A DNA stretch of 64,000 nucleotides from Phycicoccus sonneratiae. GTDB lineage: Bacteria; Actinomycetota; Actinomycetes; Actinomycetales; Dermatophilaceae. The DNA lies in assembly GCF_016887965.1 (NCBI RefSeq), contig NZ_JAFDVD010000012.1, positions 1 to 64,000 of the forward strand, in the 5' to 3' direction. Under the pieces are notes generated by a model that was not told where the DNA came from, did not search any database, and saw only the letters and a list, made by a program, of their open reading frames with translations. The translations under genes and the position numbers were made by a program. This document shows, piece by piece, positions 29,293-44,939 of the stretch; position 1 is the first letter of the stretch; each line of letters begins with the position of its first letter.

Positions 29293-31569
29293 ATGGTCAG
29301 CCTGTACGTGCGCACCCACTGGACCGACCAGCCGCCACCCGGTCTGCCGCAGCTGTCCCCACCCCCCGCCTGGACCGGCGGGTACCCGGGGCCCGTCCCG
29401 CTGCAGCCCTTCGACCCCACGCCCGCGGGCGGCACCGCCCCGCCACCGTGGACCGGTTCCGGGCCGGTGTCGACGAAGGAGGAGTACGCCGTCTGGTTCC
29501 CCGTCGTCGCCGAGAGCGACCTCGACGCCTCGGGATGGGTCGCGGGACCGGGCTGGGCCGGGTCGCCACCGCCGTACTGGGAGTCGGCGTCCGGCGCGCC
29601 GGCGAGCACGGCCGACCGGGGGTACGGCCCGACGGCGACGGGCTTCCGGGTGAACCGCCTCCGGCTCTGGGTACGCGGGGGCGCTGCCGGTTCGGCGACC
29701 GCGTTCACCTTCACCGTCCTCGACCCGACGGGCGCGGTGCTCGGCACGGTCACCTCGACGGCCGGCTGGACCGCGTGGATCCCGGTGCCCGCCGGGCTCG
29801 CCGACGGTCGGGGCATCTGGACGGTGCGGGTCAACCGCTCCCCCGGGGCGTCCGTGCCGGCACCGAGCCTCTACCCGGACGCGGCCTCGCCGGCCAACGC
29901 GGTGCGCGAGACGTTCGTCTCGCCGTACAACAGCCCGTTCGAGGGCATCCTCGGCGTCGAGCTCGACGGGGTCGAGATCACGACGACGCCGGCGCCGACC
30001 CCTTCGATGACGACGGTCATCGGCGCGTGCGACGCGGCCGGCCGGCGGCCGGTGACCCTCGAGGTCGACTTCGCCCCGCCGCTGCCGACCGGGTGGTCGT
30101 ACTCGGTGAGCTGGGCGACGGCCCTGGCACCCCCGCCGCCGGCGCCCTCGACGGGGACGGTGACGGGTGCGCCGCTGCCCTCGGTGTCGACGGTCGTCAC
30201 CTACCCGCAGGGGACGTTCTACCCGTCGGCGACGGTCGTGCTCACCTCACCGGCCGGGACCTCGACGACGACACCGCTCTACGTCCCCTCCCTCGTCGTG
30301 CCCACCTGTCCCACCGACCAGCCGTGCCCCGACGTGGTCGTCACGGCGAGCCGCAGCGGGCTGTGCGTCGACCCGGCCGGGACGACCGGCCCGGTGACCT
30401 TCACCGCCGAGGTGAGGGCGGGCACGCCCCCGGCGCCGGTGCCGTGGACGGGGCCGTTCACGTGGACGGTGCGCGACTCGGCAGGCCTCGTGGTGCCGCT
30501 CGCGCCGCCGGTCAGCACCGGCAGCACCCTGACCACGTCCTTCACCCGGGCCGACCGCTACGTCGTCACCGCGACCATCGTGCGCGACCCCGCGTGCGAG
30601 CCGCCCATCCTCGCCGGGGCGGTCGTCGTCGACGTCGCGACGTGCGGCTGCCCGACGATCCTCGGCGGGCTGACGGCCACCCGGGTCGACGGGTGCTCGT
30701 TCGACTTCTCCGCCACGGTCGTGGCCACCGGCGTGCCGGGCCTGACCTACTCGTGGGACTTCGGCGACGGCACGACGTCGGCCGCCGCGCCGCCGCTGCG
30801 GCACACCTACGCCTCGGGCAACGGCCCGCGGACGGTGACGCTCACCGTCACCGGCACGGACGGCTGCAGCACCTCGGCGAGCACCACCGTCACCCTCGAC
30901 TGCGGCGGCGGGGGCGGCTGCCCCGAGCTCGCCTCCGGGGTCTCGGCCACCGCCACCGCCGCCGACCCGTGCACCTTCGACCTCGCCGTGTCGGTGAGCG
31001 GCGGCACGGCCGCGAGCCGGGTGACGTGGGACCTGCCGGGCAGCCCGACCGGCCCGACGGCCCGGGTGACGGTGCCGGCCGGGACCTCCCGGGTCGTCAC
31101 GGCGACACTGTCCTCGCCGGGGTGCCCCGACCGCACGGCCTCCACGACGGTGTCGTGCGCTGCTCCGCCGGTCGTCGTCACCCCGCCCGTGACGATCTCG
31201 TGCGCCGCACTCCTGCTCGTCGCGCTCGCGCTGATGCTCATCGGCACGGTGCTGGCGATCATCGGTGCCTGCGCGAGCAACGTCTACGTGATCGTGGCCG
31301 GCGCGATCGTCGTCGCGGTCGGGCTGGTGCTCTTCGTCATCTGGGCATTGGTCTGCGCGGGACGCACCGCCTGCTCGCTGATGCGCGTGGTCCAGTGCGT
31401 CCTGTTCGTGCTCGTCAGTACCGTCTTCCCGGTGCTCGTGCTGCTGCTCGCGATCTTCGGGGGGATCCCCTGCGGCCTCGGTGCGGCGGCCAGCTGGGGC
31501 TACTGGGGCGCGATCCTCGCCTGGCTCTCGTTCATCATGCGGCGCGTGGGCTGCGCCCCGACGTGCTGA
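29293..31569 (+). CDS. Large PKD-domain cell-surface protein with C-terminal membrane helices
   Basis: 758 aa, ATG at 29293 with GAGAGG upstream. The first 630 residues are Pro/Thr/Ser/Gly rich and beta-strand rich. One clear PKD domain is centred at about 485-540 ([10 protein letters not shown] and [15 protein letters not shown]). Many Cys residues are paired ([16 protein letters not shown]). No N-terminal signal peptide is visible. The last 120 residues contain three to four hydrophobic helices (from about 637), ending CAPTC. The topology therefore resembles a tail-anchored or late-inserted protein, which is odd for a PKD adhesin. Function unknown; surface or scaffold role inferred. The next gene overlaps its end by 7 nt. 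Confidence 0.78.
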
Positions 31570-34159: not shown

Positions 34160-34900
34160 ATGGCACCCTCCGAGGCCCCCGCCGCCGGGCGCGGCGCGTC
34201 CTCCCCCGGCCTGCACGGCGACGTCCTCGAGGCGCTCGGGGCCGAGATCATCTCGGGGGCGGCACCGGTCGGGTCGGTGCTGCGCATCGACCGGCTCGAC
34301 GAGCGGTTCGGGGTCTCGCGCTCGGTCGTCCGCGAGGCCGTGCGCGTCCTGTCGTCGATGGGGCTGGTCGAGACCCGCCGCCGGGTGGGGGTGCTCGTCC
34401 GCCCCCGCACCGAGTGGAACGTCTTCGACCCGCGGGTCATCCGCTGGCGTCTCGACGGGCCCGGCCGGGAGGAGCAGCTGCTCTCCCTCGGCGAGCTGCG
34501 GCGCGGGTTCGAGCCGGTGGCCGCGGGACTGGCCGCCGAGCGCGCCACCCCGGAGCAGTGCGCGCGGATGGCGGCCGCCGTCATGGAGATGCAGGTGCAG
34601 GCCCGGGCGCAGGACCTCGACGCCTACCTCGCGGCCGACCAGGTCTTCCACGCGACGATGCTCGAGGCGTCCGGCAACGAGATGCTCGCGGCGCTCGCCG
34701 GGGTCGTCGGTGAGGTGCTCGCCGGGCGCACCCACCACGACCTCATGCCGGCGCGGCCGAACCCCGTGGCGATCCGGCTGCACTCCGACGTCGCGCAGGC
34801 CATCGGGGCCGGCGACGCGGTGGCCGCCACCGCCGCGATGACGGGGATCATCGACGAGGCGAGCGCCGCGGTGCGCTCGGCCGCCGCCGACGACGCCTGA
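34160..34900 (+). CDS. GntR-family transcriptional regulator (FadR/FCD subfamily)
   Basis: 246 aa, ATG. N-terminal winged helix (about 20-88) with RLDERFGVSRSVVREAVRVLSSMGLVETRRRVGVLV. The C-terminal FCD ligand domain (about 105-240) shows LRRGFEPVAAGLAAER, DQVFHATMLEASGN and a His in RLHSDVAQAI; such His/Asp residues often bind a metal and an organic acid. It is divergent from gntK-gntP and likely represses them, with gluconate or 6-phosphogluconate as the probable effector (inference). Confidence 0.93.
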   Translation: MAPSEAPAAGRGASSPGLHGDVLEALGAEIISGAAPVGSVLRIDRLDERFGVSRSVVREAVRVLSSMGLVETRRRVGVLVRPRTEWNVFDPRVIRWRLDGPGREEQLLSLGELRRGFEPVAAGLAAERATPEQCARMAAAVMEMQVQARAQDLDAYLAADQVFHATMLEASGNEMLAALAGVVGEVLAGRTHHDLMPARPNPVAIRLHSDVAQAIGAGDAVAATAAMTGIIDEASAAVRSAAADDA

Positions 34901-35095
34901 CCCGGCGCCCTCCGGTGCGTGCGCAGGCCCGCGGAGAAGAAATCTGCACTCGGTGTATCAGGGGCTCCCTCGTGCGCTCTTGACCTGTGACGGCCCGGAA
35001 CCGGGTCGGTCGGCACGAGGGTGGCCTCTGGCGGGGTTCATGTGCCGACGCGGTCCGACGGGGCAGGCGCGCAGGGGCGCCGGCGTCCGGGACGG
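34901..35095. other. Spacer after the GntR-family gene, no gene supported
   Basis: About 195 nt between the convergent regulator gene and the terminator at 35096. A short CCCGG-AA-CCGGG hairpin lies near 34995-35006. A long open frame exists on the plus strand but looks like the antisense image of the repeat gene. I see no other feature. Confidence 0.5.
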
Positions 35096-35128
35096 TGGGG
35101 CGATCGGGAGCAGGGCCCGATCGCCCCA
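35096..35128 (-). terminator. Terminator of the Tad pilus operon
   Basis: Perfect 13-bp stem (35096-35108 with 35116-35128), 7-nt loop. It starts 16 nt beyond the stop of the Ser-x-x repeat gene, marking the 3' end of the minus-strand Tad operon. It supports that gene being real. Confidence 0.85.
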
Positions 35129-35143
35129 CAACCGCGTCCGGGG

Positions 35144-35524
35144 TCAGTCGAGCGGGAGCAGCCGCGGACGAGCACGCGAGCTGCGGTGGGCGAGAACGGA
35201 TCTCCGGCTCTGCGCGGACAGGAGGCTGGCGTCGCTCTGGTGGCTGAGGGCGGAGAGCCGGCTCATGTTCGAGAACGCCGACAGCAGGCTCATCGAGGAC
35301 CCGATGCTGAAGGCGGAGGCGAACGAGCCGATGCTGCCGATGCTCAACGCCGACCCGATGCTCCCGATCGAGAGCACTGACCCGCGCGAGCCGATGCACA
35401 GGAAGCTGTCGGTGGAGGCGATGCACCACCGGCCGCGCAGGGATTCCGGGACGCTGCTCACGTCCTCGACGCTACGCGCGGAGCCGGCCGCGGGGAAGGG
35501 TGCCGGACGCCTGCTCCCGCTCAC
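35144..35524 (-). CDS. Ser-x-x tripeptide-repeat protein at the end of the Tad operon
   Basis: 126 aa, GTG start in a GTGA overlap with the upstream TadG-like gene. From residue 37 to 109 every third residue is Ser (24 of 25 positions; position 43 is Cys), with small or hydrophobic residues between: SIGSIGSALSIGS and so on. An Arg-rich tail follows. There is no signal peptide. Strict period-3 repeats suggest a regular fibrous or beta-solenoid-like fold; that is speculation. I recall similar SIGS-type hypothetical proteins in other actinobacteria but know no function. The antisense strand is also open with a similar period, so the coding strand is inferred from coupling and the downstream terminator. 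Confidence 0.68.
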   Translation of the reverse strand: MSGSRRPAPFPAAGSARSVEDVSSVPESLRGRWCIASTDSFLCIGSRGSVLSIGSIGSALSIGSIGSFASAFSIGSSMSLLSAFSNMSRLSALSHQSDASLLSAQSRRSVLAHRSSRARPRLLPLD

Positions 35525-36000
35525 GGGACGACGAGGTCCGAGCGGGCCCGCGACGTGACGTGGATGGTGATGCTCACGCCGAGCTCGCGCAGCGCGCCCC
35601 CGACCATCGGCAGCTCGGCCTCGCCGGTGAGGTCGACGACCGCCGTGCGTCCGTCGGGGGTTCCGGTGCCGGCGCCGAGCCGCCAGCCGACGACGCCGGT
35701 GGGTCGCTCGCGGCCGCCCACGTACGCCGCGGCGCGCTCGCGGACCGAGGTGTTGCTCAGCGGGACCGACTCCCCCACCCCCTGCCGGTAGGCGGCGTCG
35801 TCGAGGCCGTTCGCGGCCGAGAGCGCGGCCGCGTCGGCGACGTCGAGGAGCCGCATCCTGGCGAGGTGGGCCGACGTCACCGCGACGGTGCCGGCGATGA
35901 GCAGCATCGCGACGACCGCGAGGCCGAGGACGTAGACGGTGATCGTGCCCTCCTCGTCTCGGCGGCCACCGACCGGCGCCGGCACCGGGCGCCCGCTCAC
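35521..36000 (-). CDS. TadG/Rv3655c-like helix-anchored pilus-locus protein
   Basis: 159 aa, GTG start overlapping the next gene by GTGA. Residues about 17-40 (EEGTITVYVLGLAVVAMLLIAG) form the single N-terminal hydrophobic helix typical of TadE/TadG pseudopilins. The downstream VADAAALSAANGLDDA is the usual TadG-like continuation. The rest is a small beta-rich periplasmic domain. It lies in the Tad operon and is presumably a minor pilin or assembly factor. Confidence 0.82.
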   Translation of the reverse strand: MSGRPVPAPVGGRRDEEGTITVYVLGLAVVAMLLIAGTVAVTSAHLARMRLLDVADAAALSAANGLDDAAYRQGVGESVPLSNTSVRERAAAYVGGRERPTGVVGWRLGAGTGTPDGRTAVVDLTGEAELPMVGGALRELGVSITIHVTSRARSDLVVP

Positions 36001-40118: not shown

Positions 40119-40267
40119 GCGGCGACCCCCTTTCCCGTGGGCCGCCCCTGCGCGGCCCGGTGTGCCCGGGACAAGACAACCCCACCGGAGCGCCCGCGCG
40201 CACCCCGAACGTGACACCTGTGGATAACTCGGCGGGAGTGACGGACGGGCCGCCTACGGTCACCCGC
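40119..40267. promoter_or_regulatory. Divergent promoter region of the Tad operon and the EssC-like gene
   Basis: 149 nt between the tadA start and the EssC-like ATG. It must contain at least the Tad operon promoter, but no boxes can be assigned with confidence. A shared divergent region would allow coordinated control of both. Confidence 0.5.
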
Positions 40268-43200
40268 ATGCAGATCCGCCTGACGCTCCACGTGCCGAGG
40301 CGCCGGCCGCGCCCGGTCGAGCTCGTCGTGCGCTGGCGCCGTCCGGAGACCGTGGCCACGCTGCGGGAGGCGCTGGCCGACCATCTCGGCGAGCCGGTGG
40401 AGGCCCTCGTCGTCGACGGTCACGCCCTGCCCGACGACCACCCCGTCGGCGTCCCTCCGCTGCTCGACGGCGCGTCCGCCGCCGTGGCCGGGCCCGAGGT
40501 GGCCCGTGGACGGGGCGCTGGGCCGGCCGGCCCGGGCACCGTTCTGGAGGTCGTCTCGGTCGGCGGCCCGGACGCCGGTCGGGCCCTTCCCCTCACGCCG
40601 CCCGGGGTGGTCGTCGGCCGGTCCCCTGCTGCCGGACTCCGCCTCGACGACCCCTCGCTCAGCCGGTCGCACTGCCGCCTCGACGTCGGCCCGGACGGGG
40701 TCAGGGTCGTCGACCTCGGCTCGACCAACGGCGTCGAGGTCGACGGGGCGCGCGTCGCGGGGGCCGCCCTCGTCGACACCACCTCCCGGATGGTCATCGG
40801 CGCGACCGCCCTGCGCCTGCTTCGGACCGGGCCGCCCGGCGCGCCCGTGCGCCACCCGGGGGACGGCACGGTCGTCGTCTCCCCGGCGCCCGCGGCCTCA
40901 GCCGCGCCGCCGGTCACCGAGCTGGTGGCGCCCCGGGCCCCCGAGCCCCCGACGCGCGCCCGCGTGCCGTGGGTCGCCGCGCTCGCGCCCGTGCCGGTCG
41001 TGGCGGTGCTGGCCGTCTTCCTCGGACCGCAGGTGCTCGCGTTCGCGGTCCTCGGCCCCGTGGTCCTGCTCGCCACCGGTCTCGGCGACCGGTGGGGGTC
41101 CGGGCGACGGCACCGCCGGGCGGTGGCCGAGCACGCCGACGCCCTGGCCGAGCACGAGGCGCACGTGGAGGCCGCGCTCGCTGCGGAGCTCCGATGGCGC
41201 CACCTGCGCCACCCCGACCCGCACGAGGTGGGGAGCCGGGCGACACGGCGCGGGTCGGGGCTCTGGTCCGGTGGCGAGCGCACCGTCCGGCTCGGGCTCG
41301 GCGACGTCGCGGCGTCCTGTCGCGTGGTCGACGACCGCGGCGTGACGGCTCCCCGGCTGGTTCGCGGCGCACCCGTGGTCGTCGACCTCGCCGAGGCCGG
41401 GGGCCTGGGCCTCGTCGGACCCGAGAGCGGAACGAGGCGGCTGCTCGCCGCGCTCGTCGGCCAGCTCGTCGTCCGCAACCCGCCGTCCCGCCTCGTCGTC
41501 GACGTCGTCGGCGGGGGCGCCGAGTGGACGTGGCTCGACCTGCTGCCGCACCGCTCGACGTCGGAGGACGACGAGCGTGTCGTCCTCGTCGTCCCGGACG
41601 TCGAGGCGCCGGGGGTCACCGCCCGCGTCGCCGCGGTGCACGCCGCCGGTGGAGTGGTGCTCGCAGCGGCCACCGTCACGGCCCGGCTGCCGGAGGCGTG
41701 CGGAGCGCACGTCGAGCTCGTCGGTGGCGGACGGATCCGCTTGTCCGGCAACGGTGCCGACGACACGGCGGTCGCCGACGGCGTCGGGCCGGCATGGGCC
41801 GACCGGCTGGCACGCGCCCTCGCCCCCCTGCGCGAACAGGGCACGTCCGATGCGGACCTCCCCCGGGAGCTCGGTCTCGCCGACGTGCTGGGCGACGCGG
41901 CCCTCACCGTCGACGGGGTGGGCCGGCGCTGGGCCGCGGCGGAGCGCCCGACCGCGGTCGTGGGCGCCACCGCCACGGGTGCCTTCCGCCTCGACCTCGC
42001 CACCGACGGTCCCCACGTGCTCGTCGGGGGCACGACGGGCTCCGGGAAGTCCGAGTTCCTCCGCACGCTCGTCACGGGTCTGGCCCTCGACTCCCCGCCC
42101 GAGGACCTCACCCTGCTCCTCGTCGACTTCAAGGGCGGTGCGGCGTTCGGGCCGTGCGCCCGCCTGCCGCACGTCGTCGGGCTCGTCACCGACCTCGACG
42201 ACTACCTCGTCCGCCGGGTGCTCACGTCGCTCGAGGCCGAACTCCGTCGCCGCGAGGAGATGCTCGCGGCGCACGGCTGCGCCGACCTCGACGACCACCG
42301 GAGGTCGGCCGACTCCGGCGACCGGATCCCCCGGCTCGTCGTCGTCGTCGACGAGCTGCGCGCCCTCGTCGACGGGCACCCGGAGGTGGCTGGCGCCCTG
42401 GCCCGGCTCGCGGCGCAGGGCCGCAGCCTCGGGATGCACCTCGTCCTCGCCACCCAGCGCCCGGCGGGGACGGTGACAGCCGAGGTGCAGGCCAACGTCA
42501 ACCTCCGGCTCGCCTTCCGGGTCCGCGACCGCGCCGACTCCCACCACATCGTCGAGGACGACTCCGCCGCGCTGCTACCCGTCGACCGGCCCGGCAGGGG
42601 CGTGTCCCGGGGCGGCGACGGCACCTCGACGGCCTTCCAGGCTGCCCTCGTCGCACCGGCCGCCCCCGACGGCCCGTCCCTCGAGGTGGTCGCGGCCGAA
42701 CCCGGGCGGCTGCGTGCCGGCTCGACCGGAGACCGGAGCGCCGAGCTGGCGGCCGTCGTCGACGTGGTGCGGGAGGCACACGCCGCCACCGGGGCGGCCC
42801 CACCTCGGCGGCCGTGGCTCCCCCCACTGCCTTCCGTCATCCCGGCCGCCGACCTGCCTGCGGGCACCCTGGCCCTCGTCGACGAACCCGAGGCCCAGCG
42901 CCACACGCCGTGGGCCTGGGACCCCGGGGTGCCGCTCTGGCGCGTGGTCGGCCGGCCCCGCTCCGGGCGGTCGACCGCGCTGCGTGCCCTCGTCCACGCC
43001 GCAGCCGCCCGCGAGGCGCCCGACCGGCTCCACGTGCACGTCCTCACCACCGACGTCACGGCCTGGCCGCGCGCCCTGCCGCACCTCGGGACGGTGGCCG
43101 GGGTGGGTGACGCGCGGGCCGTCGGCGCACTGCTCGACCACCTGGCCGCGCCGGTCGGCCCCGGCTCCCCGCGACGCCTGCTCGTCGTCGACGGATGGGA

Positions 43201-44274
43201 CCAGCTCGTCGACGCCGAGGACCGCGGACCGCGCTGCCCCCCTCCGAGCGGGTCATGCGGCTCGTGCGCGACGGCGGCGAACGCGGCACCTCGTGCGCCG
43301 TCGCGGGTGGGCGCGACCTGCTGCGCCCGCGCTGGTCCGGCCTCGGCGGGGAGGTGCTGCTCCTCGGGCCGGGCGACCCGCTCGACCTCGCCCTTCTCGG
43401 CACCCACGCCCCCGGTCCGGGGCCCACGGCCGGCCCGGGTCGCGGGCTCCGGGTGCGCGACGGGCGGGAGGTGCAGGTCGTCGACCCCGGCTCGGCACCC
43501 GCGTCCCCCGCGCCGCTCGGCGAGGTCGCCCCCTGGACCTACCGACCCCTGCCCGCCCGCGTCGGCCGCCGGGACCTCGGCACCGACCCGGCAAGGGGCT
43601 GGCTCTTGGGCGCCCTCGCCCCCGACAGCACCCCGTGGACGTGGCGACCAGAGGCACACGGCCGGCGACTCCTCGTCCTCGGACCGACCGGCTCCGGCCG
43701 CAGCACCGCCCTCGCGACGCTCGCGCGCTCCGTGGCCGAGGGCGGGCGCCCCGTCGTCCTCGTCGGTGCCCACGGCCCGGCCGGAGGCACCGGCCGGTCC
43801 GGGGTGGAGCAGCTCGGGCCGGACGACGCCGACCGGCTCGTCGCGCTGCGGACGGCGCACCCCGACCTCGTGGTCCTCGTCGACGACGCCGACCGGCTCG
43901 ACGACGCCCCGGTCCGGCCGGTCCTCGAGGAGGTCCTCGACCTCCTCGTCCGTGACGGCGGGGCAGCGGTCGTCGCGGCGAGCGCCACCGCGCTCGGCTC
44001 ACGGTTCCGTGGCCTCGACGTCACCGTCGCCCGCTACGGCGCCGGCGTCCTCCTGCGGCCCCGAGCGGACGACCTGGCGCTGCTCGGCCTCCCCCGCGCC
44101 GACCTCGCCGCGTCACCCGACGACCCGCCGGGACGGGGGCTGCTCGTGCTCGACGGACGGGCGGCGCCCTTGCAGGTGGTCGTCGACGACCCGTCGGGCG
44201 CGGGCGTCGAACCGGCGGGTGGGCCGGAGGTCATTCCGGGTCGTCGAACTCCACGTCCGGAACCCGCGCGATGA
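40268..44274 (+). CDS. FHA-FtsK/EssC-like multi-ATPase with an apparent -1 frameshift
   Basis: Reads as 1335 aa if one base is restored. ATG at 40268. Domains: a ubiquitin-like-sized N-terminal region (1-80); an FHA domain (about 100-170, VVVGRS, LSRSHCRL, DLGSTNG); two membrane helices (about 233-272); a first FtsK/SpoIIIE ATPase with intact Walker A GGTTGSGKSE (about 587-596) and VVVVDELRAL Walker B; a second P-loop GRPRSGRST (about 895) and a third GPTGSGRST (43681-43707), both lacking the P-loop Lys. FHA plus membrane helices plus tandem FtsK ATPases is the EssC/EccC plan of type VII secretion. Within about 43210-43245 the coding frame moves by -1: the upstream frame continues as nonsense, while the homologous sequence resumes in the other frame. 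A C6 run at 43237-43242 is the likely site. Confidence 0.85.
43237..43243 (+). other. C6T slippery run at the frame change of the EssC-like gene
   Basis: In the upstream frame the bases read tgC CCC CCT, matching the X-XXY-YYZ heptamer for -1 slippage (C CCC CCT). The frame before it encodes LLVVDGWDQLVDAED; the frame after it encodes PSERVMRLVRDGGERG. This may be a deletion, a sequencing error at a homopolymer, or programmed slippage. Confidence 0.6.
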
Positions 44275-44644
44275 GCGCCGCGCCGAGGGTGGCCAGGGCG
44301 AGGACGAGCACGAGCCAGCCGAGCCCGGTCCTCTCCGCCTGGAGCAGGCTGATGCCCACCGGCACGAGGAGCAGGTCCCAGACGATGGTCGGCGTCCGGG
44401 GCCAGCGGCGCTCGCCGAGCCACCCCCGGGCCAGCAGGCCGAGGCCCACCGCGCCGAGCGCGATGACCGCCGCCGACATCACGACCCGGGTCGCGTCGCT
44501 GCCCTCCCCGACGGCCAGCTCGTAGACGTAGAAGACGGCGAACCCGAGCAGCGCGAGGGCCTGGACGGCGCAGAGGACGGCGGCCGCCCGTCGGGGGCCG
44601 GCGGCCGGCGCGGGAGCGGCGTCGAAAGGCGGGAGCGGAACCAC
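44231..44644 (-). CDS. Small four-helix membrane protein
   Basis: 137 aa, GTG start. Hydrophobic helices at about 20-42, 52-70, 84-99 and 106-126, with a short acidic C terminus (VPDVEFDDPE). No family recognised. It converges with the EssC-like gene and overlaps its 3' end by 44 nt. Role unknown. The overlap and position make it a candidate accessory to the secretion ATPase, but convergent genes are often unrelated. Confidence 0.7.
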   Translation of the reverse strand: MVPLPPFDAAPAPAAGPRRAAAVLCAVQALALLGFAVFYVYELAVGEGSDATRVVMSAAVIALGAVGLGLLARGWLGERRWPRTPTIVWDLLLVPVGISLLQAERTGLGWLVLVLALATLGAALIARVPDVEFDDPE

Positions 44645-44939
44645 CGTCGCAGCGTAGGCGAGCGATACGATCGCGCGTCGCGTGGTCCTCCCCCCACCCC
44701 CGGGAACACGCGACCCCCGTCCACCCGTTGAGCCGGAGTGATCACCGACACCCGGAACGACGGGGGGTATCCCCTAGCCGCGATTGGGTAGGTCACGGTA
44801 GAGTAACGCCACGGACGTCTGTGCGTAACACGTCCGCCACAGGGGTGCAACGGCGCGCCCGTGCACCGCCAGACCCCACCCCTCCGGTCATCCGGTGCCC
44901 ACGACTTCCCGACGTACCCCACACCAAGGAGCCCCATCC
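44645..44939 (+). promoter_or_regulatory. Long upstream region of the whiB1-type gene with inverted repeats
   Basis: 295 nt. Inverted repeats: GTCGCGTG (44677-44684) with CACGCGAC (44707-44714), and CGGACGT (44812-44818) with ACGTCCG (44830-44836). TAGAGT at 44799-44804 is a possible -10; no matching -35 at correct spacing. whiB1 orthologues have long regulated leaders, so these may be regulator sites or leader hairpins. Confidence 0.55.

Follow-up and report, generated by a model that had tools for sequence, protein, structure and literature searches.

Architecture of the serine-ladder locus

The window, the whole 64,000-nt stretch of Phycicoccus sonneratiae DNA that was analysed, holds on its minus strand a short reading frame in which serine occupies almost every third position over 25 triplets. 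The most likely coding sequence spans positions 35144–35461 (minus strand), with a GTG start, a TGA stop at 35144–35146 and a predicted product of 105 residues (P0002); the assignment is based on a start conserved in relatives together with an upstream −10 element, on homologues, and on purifying selection in the frame. The ladder itself lies at 35198–35416 (minus strand) and corresponds to residues 16–88 of P0002, 25 S-x-x triplets comprising 24 serines and Cys22. A preliminary description had read the gene as a longer frame, 35144–35524, and translation of that frame confirms the pattern reported there, with serine at 24 of 25 third positions in residues 37–109 and Cys43 as the exception. 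The upstream part of the longer frame, residues 1–21 (35462–35524, minus strand), is probably untranslated, and would consist of the spacer after the stop codon of a TadG-like gene plus a promoter.

Serine makes up 30 of the 105 residues of the window product. The product has a ladder score of 22, whereas no score above 11 came up when the protein was shuffled 20,000 times, and in this shuffle test the ladder is not a product of chance. The 9-bp period described for the DNA is present but weak: Tandem Repeats Finder, which gave 127 rows over the whole window, places two overlapping rows here, with scores of 36 and 31. The DNA period being weak, the pattern lives in the protein. A young or recent DNA repeat was rejected, the tandem scores being only weak.

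Just upstream of the ladder gene lies the TadG-like gene (Pfam Tad; 35521–36000, minus strand), a neighbour rather than part of the system, and the surrounding genes of the window match Pfam Tad, TadE, T2SSF (twice) and T2SSE. Downstream, a GntR/FCD-type regulator (34160–34900, plus strand) converges on the ladder gene, and between the two lies a GC-rich hairpin (35095–35129, neither strand assigned) with arms at 35095–35108 and 35116–35129 and z = −4.6. This hairpin had been described as 13 bp long and 16 nt past the stop; it exists, but its stem is 14 bp long and it lies 14 nt beyond the stop codon. A T tract is lacking, and terminator prediction did not report it.

Some other features of the window and genome are recorded in passing. 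A large protein with a PKD domain and hydrophobic C-terminal segments is encoded at 29293–31569 (plus strand). An FHA-FtsK/SpoIIIE reading frame at 40160–44731 shifts frame at 43231–43246 (plus strand) when compared with its relatives L017 and L018, running in frame 2 up to about 43231 and in frame 1 from 43246, the shift being due either to an error in the sequence or to a genuine break. The start listed for this reading frame overlaps the T2SSE (tadA-like) gene in head-to-head orientation. Elsewhere in the same genome, a second TadG-like stretch (G000:C22:196350-196646, L185) is 80% identical and carries an internal TGA.

Selection identifies the coding strand

The antisense frame is also open in the window (ORF 34953–35558, plus strand), as the preliminary description had pointed out in asking which strand is used. 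Homologues in the same frame exist in large numbers, as found by profile and pattern searches, and selection on them answers the question in favour of the minus strand. A first alignment contained seven homologues, namely the window, four more members of its genus, L007 and L010. All seven have serine in 18 of 18 ladder columns across residues 37–91, the Cys column 43 left aside, and in columns 94–103 T, G, C or A appears in single sequences. At 14 of the 24 serine columns both TCN and AGY codons occur, and a switch from one to the other needs two changes. Both serine codon families, with at least three members each, are found in 15 of 25 ladder columns of a larger, 58-row alignment (A5). Across eight homologue pairs of the seven-sequence set, the serine frame has the lowest pN/pS every time (0.26–0.84). 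In A5 its median pN/pS is 0.57, the lowest of the six frames in 364 of 373 pairs (pairs that are not independent). The A5 rows were chosen such that the serine frame is free of stops, and that absence is a selection effect.

That the plus strand codes and the serine ladder is its shadow would fit an antisense frame that, besides being open in the window, is stop-free in the cores of 53 of 58 members (the other five carry stops) and has pN/pS below 1 in 221 of 372 pairs. Its median pN/pS is 0.94, however, against 0.57 for the serine frame, and it is lowest in a single pair of 373, so that synonymous sites do not favour it; moreover, the TCN/AGY swaps retain serine while altering the antisense residues. 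We regard such an artefact as having a negligible chance of being right, and these patterns of substitution show that the minus strand codes for the serine ladder.

Start codon and probable promoter

In the window the hexamer TAGCGT (35469–35474, minus strand), a probable −10 element of a leaderless transcript, lies 7 nt before the GTG at 35461. It occurs with the same 7-nt spacing in five of five copies from the window's GTDB genus (window included), and in all five it precedes an ATG or GTG aligned with GTG 35461. Among relatives, whose start was taken as the nearest ATG upstream of the ladder or else GTG, 61 of 80 have [TC]ANNNT at a distance of 6 or 7 nt upstream of that start. The same holds for 134 of 886 neighbour starts, which were called by a crude home-made gene caller and so make a noisy control; the strict form TANNNT precedes 20 of 80 relatives' starts and 73 of 886 neighbour starts. 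Over all ATG and GTG triplets in the loci, the corresponding counts are 1319 (relaxed) and 201 (strict) of 56,325. A TANNNT motif about 12 bp before the start is described as marking leaderless genes in actinobacteria (PMC3160421), and −10 elements of TANNNT type are described at mapped transcription starts in Mycobacterium tuberculosis (PMC3898074). The window gene has a candidate −10 of TANNNT type at about 12 bp before its start codon. This conserved −10 signature makes it probable that the ladder gene has its own leaderless promoter and starts at 35461.

The sequence upstream of this start agrees. Residues 1–21 of the longer frame are little conserved among relatives and have no counterpart in L007 and L010; compared with L003, 8 of 15 residues agree in a hand-aligned stretch, partly through an RSV encoded by the promoter hexamer. 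In the closest relative (L003/L054) a stop interrupts the frame between TadG and ladder, and no start codon occurs there before the ATG aligned with GTG 35461. The gene therefore most likely starts at GTG 35461 and not at 35524, and the true coding part of the frame is most likely 35144–35461 (105 residues) rather than 35144–35524. The coupling to the TadG-like gene by a GTGA overlap, which had been proposed earlier, uses a start that the relatives do not share, and the overlap is probably a chance product of the long open frame. A probable leaderless start makes the start codon of the ladder gene easy to misplace, as happened here. In Terrabacter-type loci (L056, L058, L059, L061 and L064), a longer conserved stretch precedes the ladder (CGGCATACG ... 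GGGTACGCGTGCCTAGGCT), in which another promoter or a regulatory site may lie.

A widespread actinobacterial family

With an E limit of 1e-5, a nine-member profile matches 27 of 396 genomes of the phylum. This number includes false low-complexity matches; three (L037 of G055, L042 and L048) are false by sequence, being pure VGS repeats. A 58-member profile matches 58 of 296 genomes of the class at E up to 1e-8, a number that includes the false G055 and the weak G614, G666 and G682; 55 of the 58 have one match each. When contigs from 84,980 species were scanned by pattern, at least 505 stretches were confirmed. The best 80 of these all bear actinobacterial names, among them Phycicoccus, Terrabacter, Janibacter, Nocardioides, Kribbella, Streptomyces, Blastococcus, Frankia, Cellulomonas, Nakamurella and others, and include metagenome-assembled genomes of Acidimicrobiia, Nanopelagicales and Solirubrobacterales. 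In more distant genomes of the phylum, SILSIGSAG-type nonapeptide arrays were seen (L038, L041, L043, L044, L046 and L049); these may be an outer branch of the ladder family or independent repeats.

A phage or plasmid gene was considered as well and rejected: 91 stretches in viral contigs matched a pattern and none was confirmed, plasmids gave no confirmed match with one Streptomyces member as query, and phages gave none with the window's product as query.

The claim of a real repeat protein of unknown function held up in searches of protein collections, which returned no convincing relative. Pfam gave single weak matches alone for 58 members (best E 0.0058), NCBIfam no convincing match among the members scanned, PHROG a best E of 0.074 for the 3 of 81 members scanned, and a profile search of the PDB weak matches, GS linkers among them, with an E of 0.0055 at best. 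Five family peptides searched as strings in 5.39 million open papers matched a single, unrelated physics paper, and among the literature matches listed, titles and abstract openings contained nothing on the family. The serine-ladder family is widespread in actinobacteria.

Anatomy of the ladder

The regularity seen in the window is a property of the family. Of the 1987 ladder positions counted in 81 members, 1969 are serine. Alignment A5 holds 58 of these 81 (the 23 excluded are mostly near-duplicate Streptomyces sequences, and also L091 and L094, whose starts are unclear), and in it serine fills 90% of third positions over 25 triplets and 99% in the first 13. The residues between the serines are also ordered: their identity peaks at lags of 9 (0.41) and 18 (0.31), against 0.13–0.18 at lags of 3, 6, 12 and 15, and the non-serine positions repeat with a period of 9, not 3, forming a nonapeptide super-repeat. 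The triplet table of the 58 members begins with a cap, S-x-[DN]. Nonapeptides of the form S-[VF]-L, S-I-G, S-x-G make up the first block and those of the form S-x-L, S-[HAW]-[QR], S-x-x the second, with a phase slip, judged by eye, around triplets 11–16. R, H, Q and D make the second half of the ladder the more polar one. Leucine at triplets 2 and 5 and glycine at triplets 6 and 7 are found in 58 of 58 rows of A5; the two search patterns of the pattern scan partly force the invariance of triplets 2–7, and the serine conservation beyond them is unaffected.

Internal changes of ladder length in A5 consist of three 9-residue insertions, in three rows, and nothing else. A simple scoring rule puts ladder length at 17 to 30 triplets, a spread that comes from decay at the end of the second half. 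After the ladder, a C-terminal, membrane-like hydrophobic 17-mer (self-set cut-off: mean hydropathy of 1.5 over 17 residues) is found in 45 of 81 members. It is absent from the other 36, which include the Phycicoccus and Terrabacter copies and the window itself, so that membrane anchoring cannot be the core function. No signal peptide was apparent by eye.

The Tad pilus neighbourhood

The preliminary description had proposed that the ladder gene is the last gene of the Tad pilus operon and encodes a fibre or pilus accessory protein. In the Phycicoccus genus the ladder gene does neighbour the genes of the minor pilus proteins TadE and TadG, and it directly follows tadG in six genomes, window included. 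Gene content and synteny speak against a Tad component. TadG is present in 12 of 12 genomes of the genus, whereas the ladder gene was found in five and not in the other seven. Over the family, 3 of 83 loci, each of them from Phycicoccus, have tad/flp matches in their fetched flanks, and the other 80 have none; the window's proteins served as tblastn queries (E up to 1e-5), a search from which a very diverged tad gene could escape, and the flanks reached 7–8 kb, or less where a contig ends sooner. In these flanks, the recurrence beside tad genes that the earlier reading led one to look for is confined to Phycicoccus. The ladder protein itself has no Pfam TadE or Tad match at E up to 1 and no N-terminal membrane domain of TadE/TadG type, and its gene has a leaderless promoter signature of its own. 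Membership of the pilus operon is, on this evidence, very improbable; the position behind tad genes in Phycicoccus is tentatively seen as a local accident of gene order, a view that we hold jointly with the rod explanation below and no more firmly.

At the other loci the nearest neighbours are mixed, with 190 Pfam families over 149 neighbours scanned out of 155, the neighbour genes being predicted by the crude home-made caller. The commonest Pfam families are a thioester domain and a phospholipase C C-terminal domain, each matching eight members; in L084, scanned singly, both are on one protein, possibly a surface protein. In eight Streptomyces loci (L079, L080, L084, L102, L119, L130, L132 and L133) the ladder lies just behind a conserved gene on the same strand, which in L084 is the gene of this two-domain protein. 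When the nearest neighbours of the family loci were compared, no neighbour gene was conserved beyond close clades.

Comparison with known repeat proteins

RTX proteins have a nine-residue repeat with glycine, of motif GGxGxDxUx, and the ladder family shares with these beta-roll proteins the nine-residue repeat and its glycine. Unlike them, the ladder lacks the GGxGxDxUx motif and has no aspartate at a fixed place of each repeat, Asp being common just in the opening triplet (72%) and triplet 21 (36%), and none of 58 members matches an RTX family of Pfam at E up to 0.1. The period of three invites comparison with the polyproline-II helix, described as completing one turn per three residues and, in bundles, as having glycine at every third place (PMC8409303). 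Glycine-rich polyproline-II bundles such as those of the snow flea antifreeze protein and the Obg domain resemble the ladder in placing a small residue at every third position, but the ladder has serine where the bundles have glycine. The PDB search returned no sequence relation between the two.

A proposed serine-faced rod and its rivals

The account that we put forward, tentatively and at less than even confidence, is a serine-faced scaffold rod, often membrane-anchored, encoded by a small stand-alone gene that is transcribed from a leaderless promoter of its own; the topology and role of the rod we infer from sequence. The product would be a folded repeat protein, either a rigid rod or a compact bundle, in which each turn takes three residues (or each coil nine). 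Serine hydroxyls would line one face, and the V/I and L/G positions of the other two faces would pack against neighbouring strands or molecules. The proposed site of the protein is the inner face of the cell membrane, where it would give structure or serve as a scaffold. In Streptomyces, Nocardioides and others the C-terminal helix would anchor it; the Phycicoccus and Terrabacter copies, which lack this segment, would be held by basic tails or be free. A strict period of three, kept up for 25 turns, matches a three-residue-per-turn chain of polyproline-II type or a nine-per-coil solenoid, and the nine-residue indels, fixed non-serine positions and capping motifs favour a fold over a loose linker. 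We also count for the rod the serine regularity, the lag-9 peak, the pN/pS values, the codon swaps, the −10 signature and the hydrophobic segment in 45 of 81 members. Against it count the PDB matches, all weak, the serine- and glycine-rich sequence that is typical of disordered linkers too, the variation in ladder length, the lack of the membrane segment in 36 of 81 members, the strict TANNNT at just 20 of 80 starts, and the part of the search patterns in the invariance of triplets 2–7. With no neighbour conserved beyond close clades, nothing external points to a scaffold role.

Nearly as likely as the serine-faced rod is a loose, modified tether: a disordered serine-rich substrate, phosphorylated by PknB-type kinases, glycosylated or acylated, that would serve as a membrane-tethered platform with no folded rod. 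The serine-rich composition, the more polar second half of the ladder and the membrane-like segment of 45 members are as expected of such a tether; disordered linkers, though, vary in length and sequence, whereas the non-serine positions of the ladder are fixed (partly selected by the search patterns) and its internal length changes come in steps of nine residues. A peptide modified by a radical-SAM enzyme, as in the His-Xaa-Ser (Hxs) or TVGG (Tvg) systems, is improbable. HxsA4 (NCBIfam NF038313), by its name a triplet repeat with serine at every third residue as in the ladder, is the best NCBIfam match of the window protein, below threshold at 17–18 bits against a cut-off of 55, and 33 of 58 members match it weakly at E up to 0.01 (best 1.3e-4); a short TVGG repeat is described as a known maturase substrate (PMC9062424). 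The ladder, however, has no His-Xaa-Ser array, and the window's genome has no HxsB over the cut-off, its one partial match of 23 bits standing against a cut-off of 370 in a search whose controls gave sub-cut-off matches in 14 of 14 genomes. A called gene of more than 200 residues with the radical-SAM-like motif CxxxCxxC lies in the fetched flanks of just 3 of 80 loci (crude caller). TigB/TIGSVS is another maturase system, for which the literature matches listed contained nothing relevant.

A regulatory leader peptide that senses charged seryl-tRNA would fit a product that is serine-rich, short and probably leaderless. A leader needs a downstream gene, yet in 40 of the 75 loci that could be scored the following gene runs on the opposite strand, and the nearest neighbours are of mixed kinds; the conserved non-serine positions and the use of both serine codon families also speak against it, and we consider it most improbable.

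The serine-faced rod has a more specific form, which we hold to be doubtful: a three-residue-per-turn rod, built of nine-residue modules and with serine in place of glycine at every third position, that would self-assemble into a serine-faced filament or raft under the membrane. Translated from a leaderless mRNA, the ladder protein would perhaps be favoured in non-growing cells.

Significance of the serine ladder

Roughly one in five of the class genomes sampled (58 of 296, including a few false matches) encodes a short protein with near-invariant serine at a period of three, and a family so common has, among the members scanned, no convincing match in Pfam or NCBIfam. One structure would explain such strong regularity, and it would show whether serine can replace glycine at every third residue in a three-residue-per-turn fold.
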